Source of the DNA: Desulfobacterium sp.
GTDB taxonomy: Bacteria > Desulfobacterota > Desulfobacteria > Desulfobacterales > Desulfobacteraceae
Assembly (NCBI GenBank): GCA_016342325.1
Contig: JAEINR010000020.1
Span: 1-64,000, forward strand
DNA: 64,000 nt
Direction: 5' to 3'
Shown here in pieces: positions 28,596 through 46,308 of the stretch. Within the stretch, counting starts at the first letter, position 1, and every line of letters begins with the position of its first letter. The position numbers were made by a program, and so were the translations under genes. Under the pieces are notes generated by a model. It was not told where the DNA came from. It ran no database searches and saw nothing but the letters and a program-made list of their open reading frames with translations.

Positions 28596-29440
28596 CCGCT
28601 ATCCAGGAACTGATAAAAGAGATCCGGCAGCTCACGCCCATGTCGCCGGTGGTGAATCAGCTCATGGAGGTGATGGACACCCCCGGCTGCGCCATGGAGG
28701 ATATCGCAGCCATCGTCCAGTACGACCCTGCCATGACGGCCAACATTCTTCGCACCTGCAACTCCGCCTATTTCGGCCTTTCCAATCCAATCGAGTCGGT
28801 CAGGGACGCCGTCTCCCTCCTCGGTATGGACCAGATTCTGGAACTTGTGATGATGAAGGCCGGCACCCGGACCCTTGAAAAACCCCAGAAGGGATATGAC
28901 CTGGAGCAAGAGGCGGTGTGGAAAAGCGCTGTCGCAGCTGCCCTGATCGCCAAGGAACTGGCAAAGAAGCTCTGCCCGGAACATCGAAACACCATCTTCA
29001 CAGCAGCCCTGTTAAAGGATATCGGCAAAACCGTGCTCGATCGGTTCATCGCCTCCTCCCATGAAAAGATCAACACCCTTGTCAGGGAAGAAGGGTACAG
29101 CTTCATGGAGGCGGAAAAAAAGGTGATCGGCATCGACCATGCAGAGCTGGGTGCCATGATCATAAAAACGTGGAATTTCAGCCCGAGGATGGTCAAGATC
29201 GTCCGCCACCATCATCTCTCGGACCCGTCAATGCAGCTGGACACCGATATCGCCATCGTCTACTTAAGCGATTGCATCTGCATGATGACGGGCATGGGAG
29301 TGGGGGCAGACGGCCTTGCCTATCGTTTCCACGACCAGGTGATCAAAAATATGGGGCTCACTTCCGACGATATCATGAAAATCCTAGCAGAGTTCACCCA
29401 GACCATGGAACAGGTCGAAGAGCTTCTGCAGATTGTATAA
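28592..29440 (+). CDS. HDOD-domain signalling protein
   Basis: A 282-residue protein starting at a TTG (28592) preceded by a strong GGAGGTG and overlapping the cheD stop. The HDOD domain begins SPVVNQLMEVMDTPGCAMED (about residues 18-37) and includes VQYDPAMTANILRTCNSAYF and ALLKDIGKTVLD. HDOD proteins are non-catalytic HD relatives often located in che or c-di-GMP clusters. Its position in the che operon suggests a role in taxis or surface signalling, but the exact partner is unknown. Confidence 0.88.
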   Translation: MTAIQELIKEIRQLTPMSPVVNQLMEVMDTPGCAMEDIAAIVQYDPAMTANILRTCNSAYFGLSNPIESVRDAVSLLGMDQILELVMMKAGTRTLEKPQKGYDLEQEAVWKSAVAAALIAKELAKKLCPEHRNTIFTAALLKDIGKTVLDRFIASSHEKINTLVREEGYSFMEAEKKVIGIDHAELGAMIIKTWNFSPRMVKIVRHHHLSDPSMQLDTDIAIVYLSDCICMMTGMGVGADGLAYRFHDQVIKNMGLTSDDIMKILAEFTQTMEQVEELLQIV

Positions 29441-29551
29441 CCTTCTTACAACGGACACTTATGGATGTTCGCACTTGGGCTGATACTTGCTTTACCTCTA
29501 TAATGAAAAAATGATATCAATTCATATGCGAAAACCTATAAATCCCCCTGG

Positions 29552-29980
29552 GTGATGATTATGACCTTTTCAATATTGATAGTGGATGATTCCAAGCCCA
29601 TGCGCTCCGTGATAAAAAAGACGTTCAGGGCTGCGGGTTACGGCAGTTCCGATTTCCTTGAGGCGGGCAACGGCCTTGAAGCCCTGGAACGGCTTCAGGA
29701 AAGCTGGGTCGACATCGTGATCAGCGACTATACCATGCCGGAGATGAATGGACTAGCCCTCCTCCAGGCAATGAAACAGGACGATCTTTTCCGGGCCATC
29801 CCCGTGGTGGTGATCACCACCGAAGGAAGCAAGCAACGCATCGACCAGTTCATGGCGTCCGGGGCGGCCGGTTACATCAAAAAGCCCTTTACCCCGGAGC
29901 AGGTCAGGGACATGATAACCACAATCCTTGGAGAGAGCAATGAAGACGTTGACACCGACGATGATGACTTCGATTTCTGA
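29552..29980 (+). CDS. cheY: CheY-type single-domain response regulator
   Basis: A 142-residue receiver. The acidic pair is VDDSKP (about residues 10-15), the phospho-Asp is DIVISDYTMPEMNG (about 57-62), the conserved Thr is VVITTEGS, and the Lys is IKKPFTPEQ. The C-terminal DVDTDDDDFDF tail is unusually acidic. An in-frame ATG two codons later is also possible. The downstream cheX start overlaps its end, so they are coupled. Its phosphorylated form probably acts on the flagellar motor or another output. Confidence 0.92.
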   Translation: MMIMTFSILIVDDSKPMRSVIKKTFRAAGYGSSDFLEAGNGLEALERLQESWVDIVISDYTMPEMNGLALLQAMKQDDLFRAIPVVVITTEGSKQRIDQFMASGAAGYIKKPFTPEQVRDMITTILGESNEDVDTDDDDFDF

Positions 29981-30373
29981 AGTGATGGAGACCATGTTCT
30001 TTCTCCCGTTGGAGGAGAAGGAGGGATCGAATGTGGAAGAGGTACTCGGGTCAGGGTCCCTCCATGCCTGCACCATCAGCTTTACCGGCGCATTCACCGG
30101 CACCATGGCACTTGTCGCCCAGGAGCCCCTTCTCCTTGCCATGACCGAGAACTTCATGGGAGAAACAAGGGAATCCCTTGGCCAAACAGACCTTGAGGAG
30201 ACGCTCCAGGAGGCGCTGAACATGATCGCCGGCAACTGCTTCAGCAAGGTCGATCCCGACTCCGTGGTGGACCTGGGTGTGCCACAGATAGAGAACACCT
30301 TAGATCACACGCTTTTCCAGGGCCATCTGGTGGTTGTAACCACGGAGGGCATGCTGGCCGCCCTTTCAACCCT

Positions 30374-31523
<1,150 letters not shown>

Positions 31524-31536
31524 TTGTCGTATGATT

Positions 31537-31632
31537 GTCGTGTTAAGGGGGTCATTGGCTGTCGTGTTAAGGGGGGCATTGGCTGTCGTGTTAAGGGGGG
31601 CATTGGCTGTCGCGTTAAGGGGGTCAGGCAGA
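31537..31632 (+). repeat. 24-bp tandem repeat after cheB
   Basis: About four units of GTCGTGTTAAGGGGGGCATT plus GGCT (period 24, copies starting at 31537, 31561, 31585 and 31609), the last diverged. It begins 14 bases after the cheB stop. It encodes an open 8-residue repeat in one frame, but there is no evidence of a gene. Confidence 0.85.
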
Positions 31633-31655
31633 GACAATAAGCTAAGCCTGACCCC
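31620..31655 (+). repeat. GGGGTCAGGC inverted repeat after cheB
   Basis: Perfect 10-bp arms GGGGTCAGGC (31620-31629) and GCCTGACCCC (31646-31655), 16-base loop. It is similar to the hairpin at 10015-10037 and may be a REP-type element or transcript end. Confidence 0.75.
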
Positions 31656-31699
31656 GGTTGTCCGCCCCCGAAATCCTGCCCCGGTTGTCGTAACCTTGT

Positions 31700-32359
31700 T
31701 TATCCGTTGCAAATCCCGGCCATATCCTGTAACAGCGGCCCCACCTGCTCCCTGTGCTCCGGGGGCACCATGAGCACCGGTACCGCCTGGTTACTGATGG
31801 TGACGATACCGGTGGACAACGAAGGGGACGATCCGGTTAGAATCATGTCCGACAGATTTCCTGAAATCCCGTTACAATCCATCTGTTCGATATACTGCAT
31901 GAAAAGGTTGTTGACGGTCAACACAAGGGGGGAGAGGGTTGCCACCCCCGACCGGCTGCAATCCTCCTGGGAGACAAGGCTTCTGCACCCGAACGGCCTT
32001 GCAGGATAGATGGTGCAGGTGTTGTTCAAAAGTAAGGGGCACTCTCCCCAGGCCGGATCGTTCTCCTCCTCGGGAATCTCGCTGCCCTCCATGCAGAGTC
32101 TGGCAAACCCGTTGATGGTGGTCTTTGGCTGGAACCGTTTCCCTGCAAGGCGCTTTTCGACCCGCTCCCTGGGTGACTCGGCCGTTCCAGACCCAAGGGT
32201 CGCCTTGATATAGTCAAGTTCCAGGGAGGTGATGGTAACGTTGCAGGTGCAGCAGGTCGCGCACCCCTTGTGACAGACAAGATCTGTCTTTGCCATGAAA
32301 GTGTCATAAAGGTCGTAGAGTTGCCTGAGTTTATCAAGCCTTAAATCCTGTTGTGGCAT
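31700..32359 (-). CDS. YkgJ-type cysteine-cluster protein
   Basis: A 219-residue protein with VCHKGCATCCTCNVTIT (about residues 28-44) and a second set of ligands CPLLLNNTCTIYPARPFGCR (about 114-133), the pattern of the YkgJ/CxxCxxCC iron-sulfur or zinc-binding family. The biochemical role of this family is not established. It is convergent with cheB. It is the first of three such proteins in the window (others at 60446 and 61989). Confidence 0.8.
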   Translation of the reverse strand: MPQQDLRLDKLRQLYDLYDTFMAKTDLVCHKGCATCCTCNVTITSLELDYIKATLGSGTAESPRERVEKRLAGKRFQPKTTINGFARLCMEGSEIPEEENDPAWGECPLLLNNTCTIYPARPFGCRSLVSQEDCSRSGVATLSPLVLTVNNLFMQYIEQMDCNGISGNLSDMILTGSSPSLSTGIVTISNQAVPVLMVPPEHREQVGPLLQDMAGICNG

Positions 32360-32600
32360 TCTCCCTCCTGGAGGTTAAACCGGTGTCTGGTGGTTTGAAA
32401 ATTTACGCCTCTTTTTACCATAATCCATGGAGAATAAACAGGGACCCCGGCCAATCAATATGCCTGGCAAGGGTTTTGCGATTGACACAGCCCATTTTTT
32501 TATATAGGTAAAAGATAGTAAAGAATATTGATACGGCTGTTAATTCCTGGAAAAAGGACTTCAGGCGATTGATTCGAACCCGTTGCATGGCAGAACCGTT

Positions 32601-32954
32601 ATGAAAGAAAAATCAAACCATAAGAGCGGTCGCGACCAGAGGCTCTCATATAGACATTACATTAACATGTTCCACAGTGTTGAGCTTTCAATCGGCGGCA
32701 TGCCCTATTGTTACCAATTCAAACTCAGGGACCGATCGGAATCCGGCATGTGCGTGCTGGTACAGGAAGATTCCAAGATCATGACCCACCTGAACATCGG
32801 GGATGTCCTGGATGTCAAGTACTGGCCCAGCGACAAGGCCGTGCCCCCGGAAAAGCTCAGGACCCAGATCCGTCACATCACGAGAACACCGGCCAACCAT
32901 TCGGCCGGGCACTACTATGTGGGGCTCATGGTGGTGGACGCGAACAAACAATAG
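32601..32954 (+). CDS. PilZ-like domain protein
   Basis: From the ATG at 32601 it has 117 residues, almost all one PilZ-like beta-barrel: RDQRLSYRHYINMF, then LRDRSESGMCVLVQ (DxSxxG-like, about residues 42-55), and a C-terminal YYVGLMVVD. The RxxxR part of the c-di-GMP motif is only partly met (RLSYRHY). A TTG at 32583 is an alternative start. The ribosome site is weak. It may bind c-di-GMP made by the GGDEF protein upstream. Confidence 0.72.
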   Translation: MKEKSNHKSGRDQRLSYRHYINMFHSVELSIGGMPYCYQFKLRDRSESGMCVLVQEDSKIMTHLNIGDVLDVKYWPSDKAVPPEKLRTQIRHITRTPANHSAGHYYVGLMVVDANKQ

Positions 32955-32977
32955 CCAATATTTTCCATCCCCCCTAT

Positions 32978-33056
32978 CCCTAGGCAAGCCAGAACCAAGA
33001 ACGGTTTCTGATTCTCTTGCCCAAATAACGCGAAAATCAGAGCTACGAAGATAAAA
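32978..33056 (+). repeat. Dispersed 79-bp intergenic repeat, copy 4
   Basis: Follows the PilZ gene by 23 bases in the same orientation. It has perfect internal arms TCTGATT / AATCAGA and GGCAAG / CTTGCC, so it can fold as a compact structure. It shares CAAGCCAGAACC and AACGCGAAAATCAGAGC with the other copies. Confidence 0.85.
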
Positions 33057-33171
33057 TCCCCAATTCCTTATCCTGTTCTGCCTTTTCCAGCTTGACAAGA
33101 TCATGGCCGGTGCGATATGAGCCAGGTACGATCTGGACAACGAGCGTGTTCAGTATCCTAAACAAAGAGAA

Positions 33172-33372
33172 GCTTTTTGGTACCTTCCCCTGGGAAGGTC
33201 GGGGATCTGACAAACCGTCGGACGCCCCAGGGAACCCGGTGTGAATCCGGGACGGACCCGCCGCTGTAAGTGAGGACGACCGCCGCAACGGTCACTGTGC
33301 TGAAGGTTACAATAACGAAACAGCATGGGAAGACGCGGCCATTAGGATGATCCACGAGTCAGAATACCTGCC
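33172..33372 (+). ncRNA. Cobalamin (adenosylcobalamin-type) riboswitch
   Basis: Conserved core elements occur in order: GGTGTGAATCCGGGACGG, CCCGCCGCTGTAAGTGAGGA, GGTCACTG, CATGGGAAGACGCGG, and the B12 box ending GATGATCCACGAGTCAG and AATACCTGCC. A terminator hairpin follows at 33407-33446, so control is probably premature termination when B12 is abundant. It lies upstream of a symporter, methyltransferase and radical-SAM operon. Confidence 0.95.
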
Positions 33373-33406
33373 GGAAAAGCGTAAGCAATGTTCTCGGAGA
33401 GATGGT

Positions 33407-33446
33407 AAATCCCCGGGCTGATCGTGTGTCGGCTGGGGATTTTTTA
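33407..33446 (+). terminator. Riboswitch expression-platform terminator
   Basis: AAATCCCC (33407-33414) pairs with GGGGATTTT (33435 onward), with further pairs inside (CGGGCTGAT / GTCGGCTG region), followed by a run of T. It ends about 70 bases before the start codon of the symporter gene, as expected for an intrinsic-terminator riboswitch. Confidence 0.85.
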
Positions 33447-33519
33447 TGCCGGCACCCCTGGATCGTTCGGAGGATTTCCCAGGCACGTGCCAAAGGGGTT
33501 CCCTCCGACAGGAGAAGAT

Positions 33520-35397
33520 ATGAACCCATATCAACTGTTTCTGTGCCTGCTTCTTGCCTACATCACCCTGCTCATCAGTGTGGGGTGGTACTTCAATAAA
33601 CGACAGAAAACCCAGACCGACTTCTGGCTTGCAGGCAAAAAAGCCGGGGTGCTTTCCATCGGTTGTTCGGCTGCGGCATCCTGGCTCACCGCCGGAGGCA
33701 TCCTGGCCGTTATCGGTTTTTTCATGCTCCTGGGCATGGGCTCAGTCTGGGGATTTGTGGCCCCGAACATCATCGCCCTGTTCGTTATCGGCCTGTTTGT
33801 CAAGAAAATAAAAAGCCTGCCGGCCATCACCCAGCCCGAACTCCTGGAGCTTCGCTACGGAAGCTATCTGCGGCTGCCCGTGGCCATCATCATCACCGTG
33901 GTGATGATCCTCTTTGCCGTGGCAGACATCAAGGGCTTTGCCATGGTGCTTTCGACCTTCTATAACGTCTCCCCCCTGGTATCGGCCCTGATCGTGGCCC
34001 TTGCCGTATCCATCTACGTCACCATGGGCGGGCTTTCCGCCGTCATTGCAACGGACATCATCCAGTTTTTCTGCCTGGGCCTCTTTGTCCTCATCATGGC
34101 CGCCCTGGTGATGACCAGTGCCGGAACCCTCTCTGCCATGCCTGTTTCAGACCTATTGACAGCCATGCCCGACACCTGGTGGAACCCGTGTTCCATCGGC
34201 ATCCCCATGGTGCTGATCTTCACCTTTGCCATCATTCCCGGCTGGATCACGGAACAGGACCAGTGGCAGAAGGTGTGGGCGGCAAAGGATGAAACGTCCG
34301 CCAGGAACGGCATGTTCCTGGGCGCTTTCCTCGTTGCCGTGGTGTTTGCCGGCTGCGCCCTCCTGGCCCTAGGCCTCAACATCATCTATCCGGAAATTGC
34401 CGGAGCAGGATTTCCCATGGGAATGGCCAAGGCTGAACCCGCCCTGCTCACCTTTATCATGGAACACAACTTCTCCGGGTTCACCCTTGCCCTCTGCGCA
34501 GTGGGCCTTGCCACGGCCGCCATGTCCTGCACAGACACCTTTGCCACCTCAGGGGCCTCCTGCATCTCCAGGGACATATTCCAGCGCTACCTTCATCCCG
34601 GAGCCACCATGAAGCAGATGCTTTTCGTCAACCGGATCAGCGTGCTGATCATCATCGCCTTTGCCACCCTGGGCTCCTTCTTCATCGACTCCATCATCGA
34701 CGCCATCCACATCGCCACCTTTATTGCCAGCGCCTCCTACTTCTTTGCCCTCATGGGCGGGTTGTACTGGAAACGGGCCACCGGGCAAGGTGCCGTGGCC
34801 TCCCTCGTGACCGGTTTCACCATCCAGTCCGCCCTGGTGATCTTCGATCTTGCAAAGACGCCGCCCATGGCTCCCCCGTTCCTTGAATCCATCCACCCGG
34901 TGCTCATGGGACACGGGGTGATCCCGGCCATGGCGGTAAGCGGTCTTGTGTTTGTGGGCGTCTCCCTTGCAACAGCCCCCACCGCCTGGGTCCGGCTGGC
35001 CATGTTCTTCAGAAAGGACGCTGAACGATTGAGCCAGGCCATAGCAACACCGGCCAGGACCATGGCAGCACCGGGCATCATTGACGCCATCCAGGAACGG
35101 CCCCGGGGCAACCGAACCATCCTCCACCTGAGCTGCGACATCCTGGGCACCATGGAATGGAAAACCTTTTTAAAACGCCTGCAAAAATCAGGAGAACAAT
35201 GGGTATCGGTATCGGGATTCGAATCGATCCAACGGATCTCCCACCCTGACATTCGCTCCTGGGTGTCGGTCACCCGGGGAGAAAATGCCTCCACCCTGTG
35301 GCTGGAGGCGGAAGCCCGAACAGACAGCCTTGGGGGGGTCAAGCAGGAACTTTCCCATGCCTACACCGAAATTCTCACACTGGTCAAGGGAGAATAG
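33520..35397 (+). CDS. Sodium:solute symporter (SSS family) under B12 control
   Basis: From the ATG at 33520 (CAGGAGAAG upstream) the product has 625 residues: about 13 membrane helices and then a soluble C-terminal tail of about 110 residues. Family features are KKAGVLSIGCSAAASWLTAGG (about residues 44-64) and VTMGGLSAVIATDIIQF (about 166-183). The ligand is unknown. Because it is the first gene after a cobalamin riboswitch and precedes B12-type genes, it may import a cobamide precursor such as a benzimidazole base or a related organic anion. This is inference. The next gene follows three bases later. Confidence 0.85.
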   Translation: MNPYQLFLCLLLAYITLLISVGWYFNKRQKTQTDFWLAGKKAGVLSIGCSAAASWLTAGGILAVIGFFMLLGMGSVWGFVAPNIIALFVIGLFVKKIKSLPAITQPELLELRYGSYLRLPVAIIITVVMILFAVADIKGFAMVLSTFYNVSPLVSALIVALAVSIYVTMGGLSAVIATDIIQFFCLGLFVLIMAALVMTSAGTLSAMPVSDLLTAMPDTWWNPCSIGIPMVLIFTFAIIPGWITEQDQWQKVWAAKDETSARNGMFLGAFLVAVVFAGCALLALGLNIIYPEIAGAGFPMGMAKAEPALLTFIMEHNFSGFTLALCAVGLATAAMSCTDTFATSGASCISRDIFQRYLHPGATMKQMLFVNRISVLIIIAFATLGSFFIDSIIDAIHIATFIASASYFFALMGGLYWKRATGQGAVASLVTGFTIQSALVIFDLAKTPPMAPPFLESIHPVLMGHGVIPAMAVSGLVFVGVSLATAPTAWVRLAMFFRKDAERLSQAIATPARTMAAPGIIDAIQERPRGNRTILHLSCDILGTMEWKTFLKRLQKSGEQWVSVSGFESIQRISHPDIRSWVSVTRGENASTLWLEAEARTDSLGGVKQELSHAYTEILTLVKGE

Positions 35398-35400
35398 GCC

Positions 35401-36945
35401 ATGGACAACGGTTTCAAAAAAGCTGACCCGGCCCACCACGATTTCCAGTACCTGGAAGATCTGTCCACGGCCTACTGGTATTCCCAGGTGCTGTTCACCG
35501 CCCTGGAACTTGAGGTGTTCAAGTGCCTTGACCAAGGGATTTCCACACTCCCTGACCTTGCAAAGGCCATGGATTGCCGTGAACCCGAACTGTTCCGGCT
35601 CCTCAGGGCCATGGAAACCATGGCCCTTGTCTGCCACGACAGAAATGTCTGCCACGACAGGGACCACTGGTACAACGCCCAGGTCTCCTCCCTGTTTCTC
35701 GTGCCTGGCAAGGACGGATACATGGGAGCATTTTTCCTCTACCGAAAATACATGGCACCCAACTGGGAAAAACTGTTAGACAAGGTCTCCCCCAGGGAGC
35801 AACCAAAGGCCGAGGATCTCGACTACAAGGAACGCAACCGCCGCTATGTGAAATCCATGGACACCCTGGTGAAACAAAAGGCGCCGGAGATTGCCGACCT
35901 TATGGCAAGGGAAAATGCCATGGGACCGATCCTGGATGTGGGCGGCGGATCGGGCAGTCTTGCCCGGGCGATCCTGGCAAAGTGTCCGGGCACCAAAGCC
36001 GTGCTCTTCGACCTTGAAGAAGTCATTGAAGCGGCCCGGGAGATCTATCCTGGCAAGAGTGCCTGGAAGGGCATCACCCCCATGTCCGGGGACTTCAGGA
36101 CCCATGAATTCGACCAAAAATTCGGCCTGATCCTGTTGAGCAACTTTCTCCATGCCTATGGCCCGGACGAGGCAAAGGAACTCCTCCAACGGGCCGTGTC
36201 CCTGCTCAAACCCGACGGCATGGTCGTGATCCACGACTATTTTCCGGACCGTTCCGGCAGATCCCCCCAGAAAGGGGCACTCTACGATCTCTCCATGATG
36301 CTCAACACCTTTAACGGCGCCTGCCACTCCGTCGCCACCATTGGGGCCTGGCTGGAAGCGCTGGGGGTGACGCCGGTGGAGACCATTGATCTTGCCACCG
36401 ACACCGCCATCATGGTGGGAAGGGGCAGCGGCACCCTCAAGGGCCCCCAGGCAACCCTTTGTGACATGGCCCTGTCACTAGGGTTTGACAGGGCCGTTCC
36501 CCTCCGGCCGGACCAGGTGGCCACGGCCCCCTGGGTGCGGATGAAATGCCGGTTTGGCTGTGCCGGATTCGGCAACAATCTCCAATGCCCCCCCCAAACC
36601 GTGGACCACGACAAAACCCGGATCCTGCTGGACGACTACACAACTGCCGTCCTGGTCCAGGGGGAACCCCCGGGCAACGACTTCCATCAGCGGCTGCTCA
36701 AACTTGAAAAAACAGCGTTTCTGGCAGGGTTTCACAAGGCGTTCGTGTTCGGGGCAGGCCCGTGTCCTGTCTGCCCCTCCTGCCCGGAAACCGGCATCTG
36801 CCGCCACCCGGACCAGGCACGGCCAGCCATGGAAGCCTCGGGCATCGATGTCTACACCACGGCCCGGAACGCAGGATTGAGTCTCACCCCTGTTAAAGAG
36901 AAACATAACTATGTCAAATATATCGGGCTTCTGGTCCTGGAGTAA
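35401..36945 (+). CDS. O-methyltransferase fused to DUF2284 cysteine-rich domain (BzaC-like)
   Basis: A 514-residue fusion. Residues about 12-110 form a winged-helix dimerisation part. About 160-330 is a SAM-dependent O-methyltransferase (motif I GPILDVGGGSGSLARAI, then VVIHDYFPD). Residues about 345-514 match DUF2284 (predicted metal-binding), with KCRFGCAGFGNNLQCPP and PCPVCPSCPETGICRHP giving many Cys ligands. It sits second in a B12-riboswitch operon just before two radical-SAM genes. Known anaerobic DMB pathways use BzaC to O-methylate 5-hydroxybenzimidazole; this fits by context and fold only. The fused Cys domain is the unusual part. Confidence 0.72.
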   Translation: MDNGFKKADPAHHDFQYLEDLSTAYWYSQVLFTALELEVFKCLDQGISTLPDLAKAMDCREPELFRLLRAMETMALVCHDRNVCHDRDHWYNAQVSSLFLVPGKDGYMGAFFLYRKYMAPNWEKLLDKVSPREQPKAEDLDYKERNRRYVKSMDTLVKQKAPEIADLMARENAMGPILDVGGGSGSLARAILAKCPGTKAVLFDLEEVIEAAREIYPGKSAWKGITPMSGDFRTHEFDQKFGLILLSNFLHAYGPDEAKELLQRAVSLLKPDGMVVIHDYFPDRSGRSPQKGALYDLSMMLNTFNGACHSVATIGAWLEALGVTPVETIDLATDTAIMVGRGSGTLKGPQATLCDMALSLGFDRAVPLRPDQVATAPWVRMKCRFGCAGFGNNLQCPPQTVDHDKTRILLDDYTTAVLVQGEPPGNDFHQRLLKLEKTAFLAGFHKAFVFGAGPCPVCPSCPETGICRHPDQARPAMEASGIDVYTTARNAGLSLTPVKEKHNYVKYIGLLVLE

Positions 36946-36951
36946 TCATAG

Positions 36952-38283
36952 ATGAAAATATTGCTGGTACAACTTCCCACCTCCCACCTGGGTGCCGGGG
37001 AAAGGGTCTATCCGTTAGGCCTCTCCAGGCTGTCAAGCACCCTGCCCCCCCACCACGACAAACAGGTGCTGGACATGAACATCGCCATGGATCCCTGGCC
37101 CGAGCTCAAGCAGAAGATCCAAGCGTTCCAACCCCAGGCCATTGCCCTCTCGTTTCGGAACCTCGACCCCCTGGCTGGCCACCAGGCCTCCTATCTCTCC
37201 TCCCTCAAAACAGGGGCGAGCCTTGCAAGAACCCTGGCGCCCCAGGCAAAGATCCTGGCAGGGGGACCTGGGTTTTCCCTGTTCGCCAAACGGCTAATGG
37301 AAGAGGTGCCGGAACTGGACATGGGCCTCAAGGGGGAAGGAGAACTCATCTTCCCCAGCCTGTTTGAGCCGGATGTGGATCCGGCCGACATCCCCGGCAT
37401 CATCTGGCGAAACAAAGCCGGTCTTGTGGAAAACCCCATGGGACCGAAGATATCCATGGACGAATTACCCCCCATGGATGTTGACGCCTTCCCGCCCCTC
37501 TCCTACACCGAAGGCAACGCCTATATCGCCGCGGTGGGCATCGAGGGCAAACGGGGCTGCGACCTCTGGTGCGGCTACTGCCTCTACCCCTTTCTCGGGG
37601 GCTGCACCATGCGCCTGCGCCATCCTTCCAAGATCGTGGACGAGATGGCGTTCCTGAACCGGGAATTCGGGATCAAGCTCTTTCATTTTACCGATTCCGT
37701 GGTAAACCGTCCCCAGGAACACTTTGAAGCCCTCTGCCGGGAGCTGGTCAACCGAAATCTGGACCTTTCCTGGACCGGATTCTTCCGGGAGGATTCCATC
37801 ACCCGGGAAAACCTTGACCTTGCCCAAAAGGCAGGATGCGTGGCCATCTACTTTTCAGGGGACAGCCTCACGGACCACGGCCTAAAACTGCTGAACAAGC
37901 AAATGACCAAACAGGATATCTTTAATGCCGCAAAACTCACAGCGGACAACGGCATTCTCACCATGTGCCATTTTCTGCTCAACCTTCCCGGAGAAGGAGA
38001 CAAGGAGAGAATAGAAACCAGACAGACCCTGGACCAGCTTCTGGAGATCCACGCCAACGCCGGGAACCTGGGGGCGGTGATATTCAACCATGTGAGGCTC
38101 TACCCCGGAGCGCCTTTGACAAAACGGCTGATAAACTCCGGGGCCCTGGCCACGGATACGGATTTTCTCTATCCCGTGTACCACAACCCGGAAGCCCACG
38201 CCCACCTTCTCCACGAACTCGATGCCCGCTGCCACAGGGCCGGGGTTTATTCCCGGCTGAAACTTCCCATGGAGGCCCAATGA
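36952..38283 (+). CDS. Radical-SAM protein with B12-binding-type N-terminal fold (BzaD-like)
   Basis: A 443-residue enzyme. Residues 1-140 resemble a B12-binding Rossmann domain without the DxHxxG motif (LLVQLPTSHLGAGERVYPLG, AGGPGFS, GEGE). The radical-SAM cluster motif is KRGCDLWCGYC (about residues 201-208, CxxxCxxC), followed by a TIM-barrel part with HFTDSVVNRP. It is the third gene of the B12-riboswitch operon, six bases after the methyltransferase. BzaD of the benzimidazole pathway is a comparable methylating radical-SAM enzyme. The match is by context and architecture. Confidence 0.7.
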   Translation: MKILLVQLPTSHLGAGERVYPLGLSRLSSTLPPHHDKQVLDMNIAMDPWPELKQKIQAFQPQAIALSFRNLDPLAGHQASYLSSLKTGASLARTLAPQAKILAGGPGFSLFAKRLMEEVPELDMGLKGEGELIFPSLFEPDVDPADIPGIIWRNKAGLVENPMGPKISMDELPPMDVDAFPPLSYTEGNAYIAAVGIEGKRGCDLWCGYCLYPFLGGCTMRLRHPSKIVDEMAFLNREFGIKLFHFTDSVVNRPQEHFEALCRELVNRNLDLSWTGFFREDSITRENLDLAQKAGCVAIYFSGDSLTDHGLKLLNKQMTKQDIFNAAKLTADNGILTMCHFLLNLPGEGDKERIETRQTLDQLLEIHANAGNLGAVIFNHVRLYPGAPLTKRLINSGALATDTDFLYPVYHNPEAHAHLLHELDARCHRAGVYSRLKLPMEAQ

Positions 38284-39773
38284 AGATCCTAATCCTCGAA
38301 CACCCGAGAATGATCTCGGAAAAGCGGTTCAACGACATCGCCAACACCCCCCTCTGGTCCTGCCTCATGGGGGGTTACGCCGCAGCCATGCTTGAAAGCG
38401 CAGGGTTTGACACCTGCTTCATGGACGCTGCCGGTAAGCGGTGGCCCTTTGAACGGGCCGAAAAGGAGATCCTGGACCTTGATCCCGATCTATTGTGCGT
38501 CAATGCCGTCTACTTTTGGGAGCACACCCCCCGGCTGTTCGACCTCTTTACCCGGCTCCGGGCCAAGGGATTTTCAGGCCACATCAACCTGTTCGGCTTC
38601 TTTCCCAGTCTGGTGTTCCAGGAGATCCTTGCCACGGCAAGGGAGGTGGACTCCATTGCCGTGGGAGAATTTGAGCACACCCTTGTGGCCCTTGCCTCAA
38701 CCCTTGATAACGCCGGGAAGATCACCGGCATTCCCGGGCTGGCCGTTAACAGTGCCCTTGATCCCAACACCTTTCAATCGAGACCCCCTGAAAAAGATCC
38801 GGACATCTTCCCTGTTCCCCTGCGGCCCTCCCTTGAAGGCACGGTTTCCCTCCTTTCAAGCCGGGGCTGCTACAACCATTGCAGCTTTTGTCCCGTGCCC
38901 TCGTATTACAACCAGGGTCCCCTGTGGCGGGGCCGCACCCCGGAAGAGATCGCATTGGAGATGCAACCCCTTGTGGAAAGGGGCGCAAAGGAATTTTATT
39001 TTGTGGATCCCAATTTCATCGGTCCCGGTAAAAAGGGAAAACAACGGATACTCAAACTCATGGCCCTGATCAAGCCCATGAAGATCCGCTTTGGCATGGA
39101 GACCCGGCCCTCGGACCTGGACGACGAAATCCTCCACCACCTTGTGGAAGCAGGCTTCACCTCCCTTCTCATGGGCATTGAGAGCGGATCGGAACAGGTG
39201 CTGGGAAAGATCAACAAGAGCGCCGGGCCCTCCCAGGGAACCGAGGCCATTGAGTTGTGCCGGCGCCACGGCATCGAGCCGGAGGTGGGGTTTCTCATGT
39301 TTGTCCAGGACGCAACCCTTCAGGATCTGAGGAACAACATCGACTTTTTAATGGCCAACACCCTCCTGGATCGCCTGGAACGAACAGCCAACCTGTTGTG
39401 CCACTGCCAGATCGTGCTAAAAGGCACCGCAGCCTACACCGAGTTTGAACGGGAAGGCCGCCTGGTCAAGAGCGGCCTCTTCGGATTCGAAGGAGAGGTG
39501 ACCTTTGTCGATGACGGGGTAAGGTGGATGTCGAAATTGGTGGTGGCGGCCTGCCACACCATTCTCAGAAGTATGGGGGATCCCGACTCCCCCGTGTACT
39601 TTGCCAAGGCGGAGTCAGGGGTATCCAAACGGGCCAACGCCTATCTGGTCGCTCTTTTTTTCAGGCTCCTGGACCAGGCGGAGACCGGCAACATGGGCGG
39701 CGATATCAGGGCGCTGACAGACGGCATCAACCAGGAGATCAGGACCATTTTAGACGCCGAGATGATCCGATAG
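38280..39773 (+). CDS. Radical-SAM protein with B12-binding-type N-terminal fold (BzaE-like)
   Basis: A 497-residue enzyme starting at the ATG overlapping the previous stop (ATGA). Residues 1-170 are a B12-binding-type fold (MKILILEHPRMISEKRFND; also VGEFEHTL). The radical-SAM motif SSRGCYNHCSFCPVPS (cysteines about residues 199, 203 and 206) is followed by VERGAKEFYFVDPNF. It is last in the operon. A second radical-SAM methylase in the same cluster would fit BzaE, which completes dimethylbenzimidazole, but no bzaA/B/F gene making the ring is in the window. Confidence 0.7.
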   Translation: MKILILEHPRMISEKRFNDIANTPLWSCLMGGYAAAMLESAGFDTCFMDAAGKRWPFERAEKEILDLDPDLLCVNAVYFWEHTPRLFDLFTRLRAKGFSGHINLFGFFPSLVFQEILATAREVDSIAVGEFEHTLVALASTLDNAGKITGIPGLAVNSALDPNTFQSRPPEKDPDIFPVPLRPSLEGTVSLLSSRGCYNHCSFCPVPSYYNQGPLWRGRTPEEIALEMQPLVERGAKEFYFVDPNFIGPGKKGKQRILKLMALIKPMKIRFGMETRPSDLDDEILHHLVEAGFTSLLMGIESGSEQVLGKINKSAGPSQGTEAIELCRRHGIEPEVGFLMFVQDATLQDLRNNIDFLMANTLLDRLERTANLLCHCQIVLKGTAAYTEFEREGRLVKSGLFGFEGEVTFVDDGVRWMSKLVVAACHTILRSMGDPDSPVYFAKAESGVSKRANAYLVALFFRLLDQAETGNMGGDIRALTDGINQEIRTILDAEMIR

Positions 39774-39852
39774 ACGATCCTAGGGACTTAGCCGAGGGGG
39801 GGCTTCCCAGGAACTATCCCGGGGACTATCCTAGTGGGAATCCAAGGCAAAA

Positions 39853-40761
39853 CTATCCCAGGGCGACGCAGACGAGCCCAAGGGAGATGACGGAAATGCC
39901 CACAAGCTTGGGCAGGGCCCGTTGCTCCTTCAACACCAGCACCCCGAGTGCGGTGCCAAGGGGAATGCTCAGCTGGCGAAAGGCCACCACATAGGTGACA
40001 TTGTCGGCAAGGGTCATTGCCATCAACACGAGACTGTAGGTGGCGGTGACACCGATGCCGGCAATGACCGTATTCCTGAGCCGGTGGCGCCAGATCTCCC
40101 TGACCCTTTTACGTCCCCTTTTCTTGGGAAGGGTCATGACCATGAGAAAAAAAATGGCAAACCCATTCTGAAAAAAAAGATAAAGCAGGGAGATATTACA
40201 GAACCGAAGATCCCCCTCCAGGGCGGGAACCAAGATGGACAGGGCAACATCGTCCACCACAGAGTAGCCAGCCGTGGTGCAGGCCACCACCAGGGCCATC
40301 AGGGAGGAGGCGTTGGCGTAAGACTTTAACCGGACATCCCGGAACCGCGCCATGGGCAAAACAACGCTTCCCGCAACAATGGCAGCCACCCCCATGAGAC
40401 AGAGCCCGGAGATCTCCGCTCCCTTGCCAAGGGCCAGGGATGCCAGGACCACCAGGACCAGGGGAAACGAACGGGAAATGGGATAGGCCACGGACATCTC
40501 ACCATGGCGGTAGGTAAAGGCCAGGGTCACGTAATAAAGGGCCTGGAACAACCCCCCCAGGGCGGTGAGCAGCCAGGCATGAAGGGAAATCTTGGGGGCA
40601 AGGGGTAACCAGAAGATCACCACGGGTACCATCATGACGCTGCCAAAGGCGGTGGCAACAAGGAAAAATGCGGCATCCGGGTTCTCATGCTTGCCAAGGA
40701 GATTCCAGCCGGCATGCATCACAGCGGAAACGGTGATCAGGATCAGAGCAACAAGGTTCAA
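39853..40761 (-). CDS. EamA/DMT-family transporter
   Basis: A membrane protein with about ten helices in two EamA repeats, for example VSAVMHAGWNLLGK (first helix) and VTYVVAFRQLSIPLGTALGV near the C-terminus. The TTG at 40761 preceded by GGGAGAG is preferred (302 residues); an ATG at 40827 is in frame but lacks a ribosome site and adds an atypical N-terminus. It is convergent with the riboswitch operon, so it is not co-controlled by it. The exported metabolite is unknown. Confidence 0.82.
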   Translation of the reverse strand: MNLVALILITVSAVMHAGWNLLGKHENPDAAFFLVATAFGSVMMVPVVIFWLPLAPKISLHAWLLTALGGLFQALYYVTLAFTYRHGEMSVAYPISRSFPLVLVVLASLALGKGAEISGLCLMGVAAIVAGSVVLPMARFRDVRLKSYANASSLMALVVACTTAGYSVVDDVALSILVPALEGDLRFCNISLLYLFFQNGFAIFFLMVMTLPKKRGRKRVREIWRHRLRNTVIAGIGVTATYSLVLMAMTLADNVTYVVAFRQLSIPLGTALGVLVLKEQRALPKLVGISVISLGLVCVALG

Positions 40762-40969
40762 AACGACTCTCCCGGATGGGGTTAAATTAACACTCGCTCC
40801 CCAGGCAAGGGTACTGCCAGGGATCAACAGAATAGACTTCTATACAACCCAAGCCAGGGTGTCAAGCAAACGATAGCTGTTTGCACTCACAATTGATACC
40901 TATTCCCTATTTTAACAAGAAATGGGGTCGATTTAAATGCCCAGCGCTATAAGTTATTTAAGTTCTTCC

Positions 40970-40999
40970 TTGACTTTAAAATGACAATTTGGCTATAGT
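40970..40999 (+). promoter_or_regulatory. Candidate promoter for the DUF3141 gene
   Basis: TTGACT (40970-40975), 18-base spacer, TATAGT (40994-40999): one of the better sigma-70-like matches in the window. It is 200 bases before the start codon, so it gives a long leader. Confidence 0.6.
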
Positions 41000-41066
41000 T
41001 TTTAGGATCAAAGCACCCGATCAATTCCGTAGATTAACAATTAAATTCGCACACACCACCATCGAA

Positions 41067-41107
41067 CCGGTTCCATGGCATCCCCATGAACCGGGGATTT
41101 TCTTTTT
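41067..41107 (+). promoter_or_regulatory. Terminator-like hairpin in the DUF3141 leader
   Basis: ATCCCC (41080-41085) pairs with GGGGAT (41093-41098), followed by TTTCTTTTTG. An alternative hairpin uses CCGGTTCCATGG with CCATGAACCGG (about 41067-41094) and is mutually exclusive with it. It could be an attenuator or the end of a short transcript from the promoter at 40970. Confidence 0.5.
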
Positions 41108-41199
41108 GTTATTGTCAACCGCCGGGCACAGCGTCAGCCCCCCGTGGCTATGAATGGCGTTTCACGTTTCGGCCAACAACGAGATCACAGGAGGAAGAC

Positions 41200-43428
41200 A
41201 TGGAACAACAGCAACCGACCACAGCGGTTTCAGGACCCCCCCTTTTTAACGACGCATGGGAATACGTTGACGATGCATGGCAGCGATCAATTCTGTTCAT
41301 GGACGTCTTGCGAAAACGGGGAGACATATACCATGAGCACATGGCCCAGGGCAACCCACCGGTTCTCACCTTTGACTACAAGATCGTCATGGATGGAAGA
41401 GAATTTGACAAGCCGGTGAACTTTGCCCTGGTCAAGATCATCGACCGTCGTAACCAGCCCGTGTTCAAGAAAGAGGACGATGAAGAACGAAGGGCCGTTC
41501 AGGTGGACGAGACCACCCGGACCACCAAATCCATACGGCGCCCCATCGTGATCATCGATCCCAGGGCGGGCCACGGACCGGGCATCGGCGGTTCCAAGCG
41601 GGACTCGGAGATCGGCGTCGCCCTTGTCCTAGGCCATCCCGTCTATTTCATACTTTTTTTCCCCAACCCGGAACCGGGTCAGACCCTGGCCGATGTCCAG
41701 CGCAGCCAGGTGAAATTCATCGAAGAGATCGGCCGCCTTCACCCGGATGCAGACAAACCCGCCCTCATCGGCAATTGCCAGGGGGGATGGGCTTCGGCCC
41801 TGATAGGGGCCGACCGGCCCGACATCACCGGCCCCCTGGTGTTCAACGGCTCCCCCCTCTCCTACTGGGCCGGGGTGGACGGTAAAAACCCCATGCGATA
41901 CAAGGGCGGACTCACCGGCGGCACCTGGATGGCCTCCTTGTGGAGCGATCTTGGCGGGGGAAAATTTGACGGGGCAAACCTTGTGTCGGGATTTGAAGAC
42001 CTGAACCCGTCAAACACCTTCTGGACAAAGCAGTATAACGTCTACGCCAAGGTAGATACAGAGGAGAAACGCTACCTGGAGTTTGAGCGATGGTGGAACG
42101 GTTACTACTACATGACAGCGGAGGAGATCCGCTTTATCGTGGCCAACCTCTTTGTGGGTAACCGGCTGGAGCAGGGACTCCTTGAACTGGATGAGGAGAC
42201 CCGAATAGACCTGAAAAATATAAATGACCCGATTCTTGTATTTGCATCAAGCGGAGACAATATCACCCCTCCCCAGCAGGCCCTCAACTGGATCGTCAGG
42301 GTCTGGGAATCGGTGGAAGGGCTCAAGAACCAGGGCCAGGTGGTGGTCTACCTTGTCCACAAGACCATTGGCCACCTGGGTATCTTTGTATCAACCAAGG
42401 TCTCTAAAAAGGAGCACACAGAGATCATCGGCAGTATTGACCTTATGGAATATCTGAGCCCGGGCCTCTACGAGATGGTCATTGATGAAGGTGAAGACTT
42501 CAGTGAAACAGGCGACTACAAGGTCAAGTTTGAAGAGCGCGTCATGGATGACATCCTTGCCCTGGATGACGGGAATCTGGACGAAGAGGATTTCCGCGCG
42601 GTATCGGCCGTGTCGGACTTTAACGACGAATTCTACCAGACCTTTTTAAGCCCCTGGGTCAAGTGGTTTACAACGGAATCTTCCGCGGAAATGCTGAGAC
42701 AGGCCAATCCACTTCGCTGGTCCCGGTCTGCGTTTTCAGAGAAGAACCCCTGGATGGCCCCGTTCAAGGCCTGGGCCCCCCTGGTGAAGGAGAACCGGCG
42801 CCAGGTATCCCAGGACAACCTGTTTCTCTCCCTGGAAAAGAGCAACGCCAAGGCAGTGGCAGGAATTTGGGACGCCTTTCGGGATATCCGGGACGACGCC
42901 CAGGAGTTCTGCTTCAAGACCATCTACGGCAACGCCTTTGTCCGGGATTCGTTTGAAGGGCGCATCAACGAGATCTCGGCAAAAGAGGATAAACTGAAAA
43001 AAGAGATGGAGAAGCAGGGCAATAAAAAGAAACGACAAGAACAGAAAAAAATGCGCGCCGACATGGAGAAAGGGGGATTTGTCAAGGGGCTGTTTCGGCT
43101 GATGGCGGGGTTGATTGGTGTGGACCACACCTTTGAACAGGAGGAGCTCAAATACATCCGCAAGCTTGTCACCATCCACAATATCATGAGCAACAGCAGC
43201 GAAGCCGACCTGAAACAGCAGATGCTCGAACAGGTGAAGCTGCTTCAGTTTGACGAGGAGCGGGCCATCGCAGTCATTCCCAAGCTTATACGGGGAGCGG
43301 AGAACCGGTTGACAGCCATTCAGATGCTTGAAGCCCTGAATGAGACAGACACAATTGACACAAAGGATGCAACCCAGTTTATGAATAAGGTAAGAGCCAT
43401 GCTGGACGACAAAAAAACGTTGTCCTAG
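41200..43428 (+). CDS. DUF3141-type alpha/beta hydrolase (PHA synthase-like)
   Basis: A 742-residue soluble protein; the ATG at 41200 is preceded by AGGAGGAAG. The alpha/beta-hydrolase part carries a PHA-synthase-like lipase box GNCQGG with nucleophile C193, a likely Asp in ASSGDNITPP and His in TIGHLGIF. The last 200 residues are helical and charged (KKEMEKQGNKKKRQEQKK region). This is the DUF3141 family, whose activity is not well established; polyhydroxyalkanoate handling is the usual suggestion. It is a monocistronic-looking gene with its own promoter and convergent to the metallo-hydrolase. Confidence 0.85.
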   Translation: MEQQQPTTAVSGPPLFNDAWEYVDDAWQRSILFMDVLRKRGDIYHEHMAQGNPPVLTFDYKIVMDGREFDKPVNFALVKIIDRRNQPVFKKEDDEERRAVQVDETTRTTKSIRRPIVIIDPRAGHGPGIGGSKRDSEIGVALVLGHPVYFILFFPNPEPGQTLADVQRSQVKFIEEIGRLHPDADKPALIGNCQGGWASALIGADRPDITGPLVFNGSPLSYWAGVDGKNPMRYKGGLTGGTWMASLWSDLGGGKFDGANLVSGFEDLNPSNTFWTKQYNVYAKVDTEEKRYLEFERWWNGYYYMTAEEIRFIVANLFVGNRLEQGLLELDEETRIDLKNINDPILVFASSGDNITPPQQALNWIVRVWESVEGLKNQGQVVVYLVHKTIGHLGIFVSTKVSKKEHTEIIGSIDLMEYLSPGLYEMVIDEGEDFSETGDYKVKFEERVMDDILALDDGNLDEEDFRAVSAVSDFNDEFYQTFLSPWVKWFTTESSAEMLRQANPLRWSRSAFSEKNPWMAPFKAWAPLVKENRRQVSQDNLFLSLEKSNAKAVAGIWDAFRDIRDDAQEFCFKTIYGNAFVRDSFEGRINEISAKEDKLKKEMEKQGNKKKRQEQKKMRADMEKGGFVKGLFRLMAGLIGVDHTFEQEELKYIRKLVTIHNIMSNSSEADLKQQMLEQVKLLQFDEERAIAVIPKLIRGAENRLTAIQMLEALNETDTIDTKDATQFMNKVRAMLDDKKTLS

Positions 43429-43441
43429 GGGATGAAGCGGC

Positions 43442-44221
43442 TCACAGATCGATAAGGGCGCCAGGCAGATCGGGCCTTGCGACTTCAACCCCGATATGGG
43501 GGGAGTCCAGGGCTTCGGTCATCACCTGGAGGGCCTTTTCAGGGCAATTGTTCTGTTCGCTTAAATGGGCCAGGATCACATGGGCAAGGGCCGGGGTTCT
43601 CACATCACAGACAAGGGCTGCCGCTTCCTGGTTGGAGAGGTGGCCCCTTCGACTCTTGACCCGCTGTTTCAGATACCAGGGATAGGGACCGATATTGAGC
43701 AGGTGGGGATCGTGGTTCGCTTCCACATAGAGAAGATTGCATCCGCGAAGGTGCTGGCGCACAAGATTCGTGGCAATGCCGAGATCCGTTGCAATACCAA
43801 GCTTTGCGCTACCGTGCTCAACCGTCATCCCCAAGGGGTCAGCGGCATCATGGGAGATGGAAAAGGGATTGATGGTCAACTCCCCGATCTCAAACCGGGT
43901 GCCACAGGCGAAAAGATTGACCTGATCAACCTTCCCCAGCTTGGCTTCAGCCGCCAGGTGGGTCTTTAAATTGAGGTAAAGGGGGATGTTGTAACGCCGG
44001 CTCAATATGCCTGCGGCCTGGATGTGGTCCGTGTGCTCATGGGTCACCACCACGGCGGAGAGGTTATCGGGCGAAAGCGCTTTGGCACGCATCCTCCGCT
44101 CAAGTTCCACACCGGAAAACCCGGCGTCAACAAGAATGGAGGTGGTTCCGCCCGACACAAACACAGAATTGCCCCTGCTGCCACTTGCCAGGGGGCAGAT
44201 GGATAAGCAGGGGCTTTTCAC
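43442..44221 (-). CDS. Metallo-beta-lactamase-fold hydrolase (YycJ/WalJ-like)
   Basis: A 259-residue protein with the metal motif VTHEHTDHIQAAG (HxHxDH, about residues 59-71), plus SISHDAADPLG and HLSEQNN histidines. The N-terminal CPLASGSRGNSVFV is typical of the YycJ-type MBL group. It starts at a GTG (44221) whose first base is the last base of the pnp stop codon, so it is translated right after pnp. The substrate is unknown, possibly nucleic acid related. Confidence 0.85.
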   Translation of the reverse strand: MKSPCLSICPLASGSRGNSVFVSGGTTSILVDAGFSGVELERRMRAKALSPDNLSAVVVTHEHTDHIQAAGILSRRYNIPLYLNLKTHLAAEAKLGKVDQVNLFACGTRFEIGELTINPFSISHDAADPLGMTVEHGSAKLGIATDLGIATNLVRQHLRGCNLLYVEANHDPHLLNIGPYPWYLKQRVKSRRGHLSNQEAAALVCDVRTPALAHVILAHLSEQNNCPEKALQVMTEALDSPHIGVEVARPDLPGALIDL

Positions 44222-46308
44222 TATTTCTCGTCGTTCTCTACAGCCTTGAGGCTAAGGCGGATCTTTCCGTCCCGGGTGATCTCAAGTACCTTGACCCGGA
44301 TGACCTCACCCTCTTTGACCACATCGGTGACCTTCTTCACTCGCTGGTTGGCAAGCTCGGAGATATGAACCAGGCCGTCCGTGCCGGTCTTGATTCTTAC
44401 AAAGGCACCGAAATCGGTGATCTTCACCACCTCTCCCTCGTAAATAGCGCCAATCTCAGGATCGAGTCCGATGTCGGTGACGATCTTTGCTGCGGCCTCA
44501 CCATCTTCCTGGTTTTCCGCTGCGATCTTCACAAGACCGGAGTCGTCCACCTCGATGTTGGTGTTGGTGTCCGCCTGGATGGAGCGGATCATCTTACCTC
44601 CAGGGCCGATGATCTCCCGGATCTTGTCGGGATTGATCTTGACGCTGATGATCTTGGGTGCATAGGGCGACATGTTGTCCCTGGCGTTGTCCAGGGTATC
44701 AAGCATGCGCTTTAGGATGTGAAGCCGTCCTTCCCGAGCCTGGTTAAGGGCCTTGATCAGGACATCCTTGGAGAGTTCCCGAATCTTGATGTCCATCTGA
44801 AGCGCTGTAATACCCTCTTCAGTGCCGGCCACCTTGAAGTCCATGTCTCCGAAATGATCCTCATCTCCGAGGATATCGCTGAGAACAACGGTGTTCTCCT
44901 CGTCGGAAACAAGTCCCATGGCAATACCGGATACAGGGGATTTGATGGGCACGCCACCGTCCATGAGGGCCAGGGTGCCAGCGCATACAGTGCCCATGGA
45001 AGAGCTACCGTTGGACTCCATCACCTCGCCCACAAGGCGGATGGTGTATTCGAAATCCTCAGAATTGGGCAGAACCCGCGCAAGGGCTCGGTGGGCAAGA
45101 TTGCCGTGACCGATATCCCTACGGCTCGGTCCACCCGCCCGCCGGCACTCGCCAACGGAAAAGGGAGGAAAGTTGTAGTGGAGCATGAAGTTCCGGGTCT
45201 CGTTTCCGTTCAGGGTCTCGACCCGCTGCTCGTCCGGTCCCGATCCCAGGGTCAGAATGCCCAGTACCTGGGTCTCGCCCCGGGTAAACAGCGCACTGCC
45301 GTGGGGCCGTGGCAGGGTACCCACCTCGCAGGTGATCTCCCTGACCTTGTCAAAGGCCCGGCCGTCGATTCGCTTGTTCTCAGTCAGGACAATCTTCCGG
45401 GAGACCTTTTTGATGAGATCTCCGAAAATGGATTTCACTTCACCCACCCGGTCAGAGAAATCCTCACCAAGGGACGCGATCATCTCAGCTCGAACAACAT
45501 CAAGGGCCTTGGTCCGTTCCATCTTTCCCTGGGTCTGGACAGCGGTATGAATGTTCCCTTCACAAAGTTCAGTAACCTTAGTAAGAAGCTCCTGGTCCAC
45601 CTCGGGGGGGGTATAGGCCCGCTTTTCTTTACCAAGGGCTGCCTTAAGCTCTTCCTGGAGTTCGATGATGGGCTGCATGCTCTCATGGCCAAAAAAGATC
45701 GCATCGAGCATCTCAGCTTCGGAAACGATGTTGGCACCGCCCTCCACCATGACCACACCGGTCTTGGACCCTGCAACCACAAGCTCAATATCACTGTCTT
45801 CCATCTGCTCAATGGTGGGGTTGGCAACAAATTCGCCGTCGATGCGACCGACCCTCACCCCTGCGATGGGACCTGCAAAGGGAATGTCAGACATCTGGAG
45901 TGCAGCGGAGGCGCCAACCAAGGCAAGGACATCCGGCTCGTTTTTCTTGTCGGTGGAGATGACGGTGGCAATCACCTGGATCTCACAGGCCCATCCCTTC
46001 TCAAACAGAGGGCGGATGGGACGATCGATGAGGCGAGCTGTCAGGGTCTCCCTTTCACTGGGCCGGCCGATCTCCCGCCTGAAATAGTTGCCCGGGATTC
46101 TACCGGCAGCATAGATCTTCTCCTGGTACTCCACAGTAAGGGGAAGAAAAGAGACGTTATCCCTAGGGGTTTTTGCCGCAACGGCGGTCACGAGCACAAT
46201 GGTCTCGCCGTGCTGTACGATGACCGACCCTGAAGCCTGTTTTGCGATTTTTCCGGCAGTGATGGTGAAATCCTTGCCGTTAAGCTGGGTTTTGAATATT
46301 TGTTCCAT
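44221..46308 (-). CDS. pnp: Polyribonucleotide nucleotidyltransferase (PNPase)
   Basis: A 695-residue enzyme with two RNase PH-type domains ([15 protein letters not shown]; later [14 protein letters not shown]), a KH domain ([12 protein letters not shown], about residues 565-576) and an S1 domain ([18 protein letters not shown]). It degrades RNA by phosphorolysis. It follows rpsO with a strongly folded spacer, the classical arrangement for PNPase autoregulation. The ATG is preceded by AGGAG. Confidence 0.97.

Follow-up and report, generated by a model that had tools for sequence, protein, structure and literature searches.

The analysed window comprises 64,000 nucleotides of Desulfobacterium sp. 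(contig JAEINR010000020.1 of assembly GCA_016342325.1) and carries an operon in which a cobalamin riboswitch precedes a symporter gene and three genes for putative tailoring enzymes of the cobamide lower ligand, the base that determines which cobamides a bacterium uses and shares. The features are listed in Table 1; below, G, C and L numbers denote genomes, contigs and loci, respectively. The four genes are closely packed: 3 nt separate the symporter and methyltransferase genes, 6 nt separate the latter from the gene for the first of two radical S-adenosylmethionine (SAM) proteins (rSAM1), and the second, rSAM2, starts with an ATG at 38280 that gives a 4-nt overlap with the rSAM1 stop. The unit methyltransferase-DUF2284/rSAM1/rSAM2 is hereafter called the cassette.

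Table 1. Features of the riboswitch-controlled operon
Feature	Position	Strand	Evidence
Cobalamin riboswitch aptamer (RF00174)	33162..33389	+	cmscan 101.8 bits, gathering score 31.5, E 2.6e-24
Terminator-like hairpin and T run, 3' of the aptamer	~33407..33445	+	sequence and fold; putative function
SSS-family (PF00474) symporter, 625 aa	33520..35397	+	SSF 99.7 bits, gathering score 22.8; substrate not readable from sequence
BzaC-like SAM O-methyltransferase (Methyltransf_2) fused to DUF2284	35401..36945	+	domain profiles
BzaD-like B12-binding radical SAM protein (rSAM1)	36952..38283	+	TIGR04385 420.8 bits
Second radical SAM protein (rSAM2), BzaE position, B12-binding-like N-terminus	38280..39773	+	Radical_SAM 76.4 bits

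Downstream of the aptamer, the segment 33390-33450 folds at -22.6 kcal/mol (z -2.44), a value equalled or bettered by 3 of 200 shuffled sequences. The hairpin site is also among those found by a simple terminator scan, which is no proof by itself because the region yields 11 sites in total against 8.1 +/- 3.1 expected. The aptamer and the hairpin together are a probable transcription-attenuation platform. A preliminary description of this DNA had proposed a cobalamin riboswitch with a terminator in front of four tightly packed genes, encoding a symporter, an O-methyltransferase and two radical-SAM proteins, and both the architecture and the family assignments hold, with the qualification that the B12-binding match of rSAM2 (23.5 bits) lies under the cut-off of 32.1. 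Its further remark that bzaA/B/F, the ring-making genes, are absent from the vicinity is likewise correct for the open reading frames read in 29000-45000 of the window, none of which is bzaA/B/F-like.

The most informative of the enzymes is rSAM1, residues 2-425 of which align to positions 1-426 of the 438-position BzaD profile TIGR04385 (E 7.8e-126), with the next-best family, at 215.9 bits, scoring 205 bits lower. The curated equivalog cut-off of this profile is 450 bits and, because the score falls under it, the protein is, by its sequence, BzaD-like and is not filed as BzaD. The suggested parallel between this enzyme order and bzaC-bzaD-bzaE is thereby sustained in so far as BzaD is the best family by a wide distance and bza and cob genes adjoin the cassette elsewhere, and it stops short of the formal BzaD threshold. 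The protein also contains a Radical_SAM domain and a B12-binding domain (PF02310, 37.4 bits, above the same 32.1 cut-off), and its CxxxCxxC motif (CDLWCGYC, residues 203-210) is invariant in 24 aligned rows. The corresponding motif of rSAM2 (residues 197-204) is invariant in 23 rows. The best NCBIfam match of rSAM2 is BchE (81.4 bits), with BzaD at just 20.8 bits and the others being generic families of B12-dependent radical-SAM proteins; no BzaE-named model is present among its profile matches. The gene for rSAM2 lies directly 3' of the BzaD-like gene in 17 of 17 complete cassettes of the window's family. Neither radical-SAM protein contains a DxHxxG motif.

The methyltransferase is similar to class-2 O-methyltransferases, with Methyltransf_2 (75.6 bits), Dimerisation (47.5 bits) and DUF2284 (121.7 bits) domains that all score above cut-off and an H278-D279 pair that is invariant in 21 aligned cassette rows. 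The C-terminal DUF2284 domain (residues 368-512, ~36502-36936), which the preliminary description had missed, contains seven cysteines that are invariant in the same 21 rows and also across a broader collection of 36 DUF2284 sequences. No sequence relative of this domain was found in the PDB. Its structural model (predicted local distance difference test score 90.4) has the epoxyqueuosine reductase QueG as the best Foldseek match, at E 0.014, with none at E <= 0.001; a second structural comparison places it near RdhA (Z 7.2), QueG (6.7) and CblC (5.2), as well as nitroreductases, values under 8 that may mean merely a shared arrangement, and folds missing from these match lists are not thereby excluded. 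Several of the structural neighbours (reductive dehalogenase, QueG, nitroreductases, CblC) bind B12, and a corrinoid or Fe-S role of DUF2284, with which the cysteines would be consistent, is a guess. Two known families, ArsM-DUF2284 (NF041536) and MbdU (NF045648), similarly feature DUF2284, either by itself or attached to a methyltransferase-type domain, but only the DUF2284 part matches them (93.1 bits against 575 and 89.2 bits against 600, respectively), and the methyltransferase of the window belongs to the Methyltransf_2 type. In three genomes, an additional, free-standing DUF2284 protein is encoded near the cassette (L075:690-1316, L078:12703-13323 and L086:2-418).

The cassette is a recurrent unit. 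Among 86 genomes of the family, 20 encode a BzaD-like protein scoring 374-424 bits (the G044 copy is in two contig-edge pieces), and the three tailoring genes are adjacent in 17 of the 20 regions examined (L068-L087); the remaining three start at a contig edge within rSAM1, with rSAM2 next. The window, as the source of the query, is not included in this count, whereas G079 appears twice, with two BzaD-like loci (L071 and L079) that each end at a contig edge, possibly a strain mixture or a duplicate. Whole cassettes remain within the above score range and always contain the same methyltransferase. Three further loci, L003, L004 and L005, carry the cassette as well; L002 is not counted separately from the G059 contig. 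A cobalamin riboswitch is present upstream of 9 cassette loci (scans of 15 of the 20 regions and of three more; L069, L072 and L074 again), and 9 of the 11 loci with at least 1 kb of sequence upstream of the methyltransferase gene have it; L004 has one directly upstream, at 123 bits. The ring-making and tailoring genes, not united in the operon of the window, are joined in L003 and L152, which belong to other families: there, one cobalamin riboswitch heads a bzaF-type gene, the methyltransferase-DUF2284 gene, rSAM1 and rSAM2, in that order. In L005, genes for CobT (421.5 bits) and CobS (163.7 bits) come after the cassette. The proposed role of the three enzymes in lower-ligand biosynthesis is thus supported by the BzaD match, by the combined units of L003 and L152, and by the cobT-cobS neighbours in L005. 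Of the 20 cassette genomes, 17 contain a gene of the bzaF class, compared with 23 of the 66 remaining genomes, where one match is partial (Fisher p 9e-5, uncorrected for kinship).

Weaker matches to the BzaD profile, at 270-300 bits, occur in other genomes of the phylum, namely 7 of the 9 listed, and were considered as bza loci and rejected, their neighbours being, by eye, of exopolysaccharide or acyltransferase type. At L153-L159, matches of this strength lie amid exopolysaccharide-like genes and other radical-SAM genes and would be wrongly labelled under a permissive BzaD threshold.

The bzaF genes themselves have to be told apart from thiC. Genes of the ThiC family fall into two score classes in the window's family, and a tree of 17 bzaF and 4 thiC rows separates the two completely, with 100/100 support. 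A cobalamin riboswitch lies upstream of bzaF in all 19 scanned loci (17 of the family, L003 and L152), whereas the thi operons in L093, L094, L098, L160, L162 and L163 have thiamine pyrophosphate (TPP) riboswitches instead. Of the 17 family loci, 15 have cobT 3' of bzaF, the exceptions being L096 and L097. The possibility that the ThiC-family genes scoring 550-580 bits are second copies of thiC is rejected on the basis of the tree, the type of riboswitch and the cobT neighbours. The bzaF-class proteins of the family pass the NCBIfam ThiC cut-offs and would be called ThiC, although they are only 42-45% identical to thiC products and form a clade of their own, so that both the cobamide and the thiamine predictions would be wrong for these genomes. 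In the complete genome G058, the sole ThiC-family gene (L088:9222-10538) belongs to the bzaF class; calling it ThiC would therefore be an error, and the strain is expected to depend on an outside source of the thiamine pyrimidine.

In the window's own assembly (G000; 6.67 Mb, 205 contigs, completeness 99.99), the only ThiC-family match is a thiC beside thiE, thiF, thiH and thiG under a TPP riboswitch; the search found no bzaF, and a CobT search found nothing beyond a 40% identical fused copy. In both congeners, G058 and G059, bzaF-cobT lies opposite asnS, within one block that also includes a radical-SAM gene, an RNase E/G gene, rnpA, yidC and mnmE, in the same order in the two genomes. No collinear DNA match to this block (~21 kb, approximately 96,982-118,028 of G059 contig C53) exists in G000, where the only matches in the region are short, namely, a 285-bp stretch of similarity between thiC and bzaF, together with riboswitches and small repeats. 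At the protein level, asnS and the radical-SAM gene of the block detect only distant paralogues in G000, and the RnpA family has no match there, whereas 10 of 14 control genomes match. At one edge of the block, homology extends to position 23,728 of contig C36, 87 bp short of the contig end at 23,815. Since bacterial life without rnpA and yidC is not to be expected, loss from the assembly is the simplest reading; the absence of bzaF is most likely an assembly artefact. A completeness estimate near 100% is compatible with the loss of a block that holds essential genes. The preliminary description noted the ring-making gene as missing here, allowed for a split pathway and suggested searching the genome for bzaF or bzaA/B and cobT. 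The search itself agrees as far as the single thiC and the fused CobT go, but the block that carries both genes in the congeners is missing whole from the assembly, rnpA included, and a lack of the gene in the organism is not supported.

Scoring of 150 among 443 first-look candidates gave a minimum of 11 cobalamin riboswitches in the assembly. One of them, on contig C131 (62.2 bits; L115:7456-11364), precedes a gene for a TrpD-type phosphoribosyltransferase (247.5 bits, above cut-off), and the same locus encodes a 715-aa protein in which an alcohol-dehydrogenase domain is joined to CobT, an unusual lower-ligand activation set.

The symporter, which has a C-terminal extension past the matched SSF domain, reaches no substrate-specific equivalog: it scores 116.8 bits against TIGR00813 (cut-off 184), 67.5 against PutP (515.5) and 54.3 against PanF (328). 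The solved SSS transporters (vSGLT, a sialic-acid-type symporter, a choline transporter and SGLT1) are recognisable by sequence as members of the same fold family (best E 5.6e-16), but none is close. Close orthologues, with 73-93% protein identity, are encoded in 11 of the 86 genomes, in nine of which (G000, G038, G041, G058, G059, G060, G080, G081 and G082) the gene lies directly upstream of the cassette. In G019, it is located ~1.4 kb 3' of cobT of a bzaF-cobT operon, with a single unassigned gene in the interval and a cobalamin riboswitch match of its own, and in G017 it stands alone under a cobalamin riboswitch (86.8 bits); BzaD-profile matches in these two genomes are no higher than ~198 bits, that is, they have no cassette. 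Because symporter loci without the cassette exist alongside cassette genomes without the symporter (e.g., G057, G050, G079 and G085), the symporter is an optional member of the cobamide regulon. Nine of the 11 genomes with an orthologue also have bzaF, the exceptions being G000 and G038 (90% complete, with no ThiC-family match), and the idea that the symporter substitutes for bzaF, put forward in the preliminary description as import of a benzimidazole precursor, is weakened accordingly. A limited literature search found no SSS symporter associated with a cobalamin riboswitch, and we do not claim that the association is unpublished. Present in the regulon with or without the tailoring genes, the symporter is a candidate for precursor uptake.

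We read the operon, with a probability of roughly 0.8, as the tailoring arm of the anaerobic pathway that makes benzimidazole lower ligands, in an organism closely related to Desulfobacterium autotrophicum HRM2, with bzaF located elsewhere in the genome and not replaced by the symporter. The riboswitch, the gene order, the protein families, their conservation, the operon partners in other genomes and the missing block are observed, whereas the reactions of the enzymes, their product and the cargo of the symporter are inferred. Under scarcity of cobamide, the riboswitch would permit transcription into the operon, and with cobamide bound, transcription would stop at the hairpin. BzaF, encoded elsewhere with CobT under its own cobalamin riboswitch, would make 5-hydroxybenzimidazole (5-OHBza), which the methyltransferase-DUF2284 protein would O-methylate to the methoxy form; the two B12-dependent radical-SAM proteins would then add or exchange ring methyls, yielding 5,6-dimethylbenzimidazole (DMB) or 5-methylbenzimidazole, and CobT would activate or attach the resulting base. 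The symporter, a further member of the cobamide regulon, may import a base, a nucleoside or another precursor. The order of the reactions is that of the published bza pathway (PMC6461909, PMC8123684).

The bza pathway (bzaAB or bzaF, cobT, bzaC, bzaD and bzaE), with Eubacterium limosum, Acetobacterium woodii, Moorella thermoacetica and Geobacter sulfurreducens as representatives, shares with the window's operon a cobalamin riboswitch and the succession of a methyltransferase, a BzaD-like protein and a second B12-type radical-SAM protein, which is the published order (PMC8123684); the immediately upstream bzaF of L003 and L152 extends the likeness. The operon differs from this pathway in that the bzaF-cobT operon of the window's family is separate from the tailoring operon, DUF2284 is fused to the methyltransferase, the BzaD-like protein scores under the curated cut-off and a symporter gene comes first. 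The interest of the system lies in this split, in the DUF2284 fusion, in the symporter within the regulon and in the possible link to 5-methylbenzimidazole.

Several observations weigh against the tailoring-arm assignment or against its placing of bzaF. The BzaD cut-off is reached by no cassette protein and by none in the 86 family genomes or in a set of 395, and BzaC and BzaE are candidate names based on fold and gene order. At L071 and L085, there is no cobalamin riboswitch even at E <= 0.1, despite ample sequence upstream of the cassette. A bzaF match is also absent from the cassette genomes G038 (90% complete) and G072 (88%). As for the missing block, the absence of yidC and mnmE from G000 is seen at the DNA level only, and at the other edge homology stops within contig C16, where 9.8 kb of other sequence follows. 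Since the contig does not end at this edge, where G058 also differs, the boundary there is a rearrangement, and only one edge of a gap is directly shown. The assembly gap falls short of proof, and the strain's own bzaF is unseen.

If, instead, the strain truly had no bzaF, the symporter would import 5-OHBza or another base from neighbouring organisms and the cassette would only tailor it. The sole thiC in the assembly fits such a loss, CobT activity may survive in the C-terminal half of the alcohol dehydrogenase-CobT protein, free benzimidazoles occur in the environment (PMC4230183), and published surveys include genomes that have bza genes but neither bzaF nor bzaAB, with 96 genomes counted for any bza gene and 88 for the first step (PMC6461909). 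This explanation is nevertheless very unlikely, given that bzaF-cobT is missing along with rnpA and, at the DNA level, yidC and mnmE, that a contig ends at the block edge, that the same symporter is found in nine genomes with bzaF, and that both congeners combine bzaF with an operon 84-88% identical to that of the window; the synteny test rejects real loss as the likelier reading. Equally improbable is a target other than the lower ligand, such as a lipid or another cofactor, with the BzaD match reflecting general kinship among B12-binding radical-SAM proteins. The 270-300-bit BzaD matches in the unrelated, exopolysaccharide-like neighbourhoods and the purely generic matches of rSAM2 point in that direction, but the scores of whole cassettes with their constant methyltransferase partner, and the cobalamin riboswitches, bzaF, cobT and cobS that adjoin cassettes in unrelated genomes, argue for the lower ligand.

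Two narrower alternatives concern parts of the tailoring-arm reading and carry more weight, if still less than even odds. The symporter could be a general nutrient carrier that came under B12 control by chance and has nothing to do with lower-ligand work, a possibility consistent with the breadth of the symporter family and with the nine L068-L087 cassette loci that, judged from upstream sequence or a full genome search, lack the gene; on the other side, 9 of the 11 close orthologues sit directly upstream of the cassette and the remaining two are each under a cobalamin riboswitch of their own, one of them behind bzaF-cobT. Somewhat more doubtful is the production of 5-methylbenzimidazole instead of DMB, in which case one of the radical-SAM proteins would no longer add the 6-methyl or would perform another step. 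All cassette BzaD-like scores lie below the equivalog cut-off and rSAM2 has no close named family, as this alternative would suggest. D. autotrophicum is reportedly among the sulfate reducers that contain 5'-methylbenzimidazolyl cobamides. The title of a 1988 paper, as listed in PMC4303638, places such cobamides in some sulfate reducers, but the full BzaC-BzaD-BzaE order is read as DMB in the published code (PMC6461909, PMC8123684). A still more specific combination, in which the cassette makes 5-methylbenzimidazole, DUF2284 is a new Fe-S/corrinoid module of nitroreductase-like fold and the symporter feeds in free benzimidazoles, is unlikely as a whole. If it were true, free benzimidazoles would enter the cobamide of sulfate reducers through the symporter; 5-methylbenzimidazole is a natural lower ligand to which no genes are assigned in those portions of the literature that were examined.

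Downstream of the operon, the window encodes an EamA-type transporter (39853-40827, minus strand) that approaches the phosphonate-linked family TIGR03340, with 179.9 bits against a cut-off of 288. Another neighbour on this side is a DUF3141 protein (41086-43428, plus strand) with weak similarity to PHA synthases.

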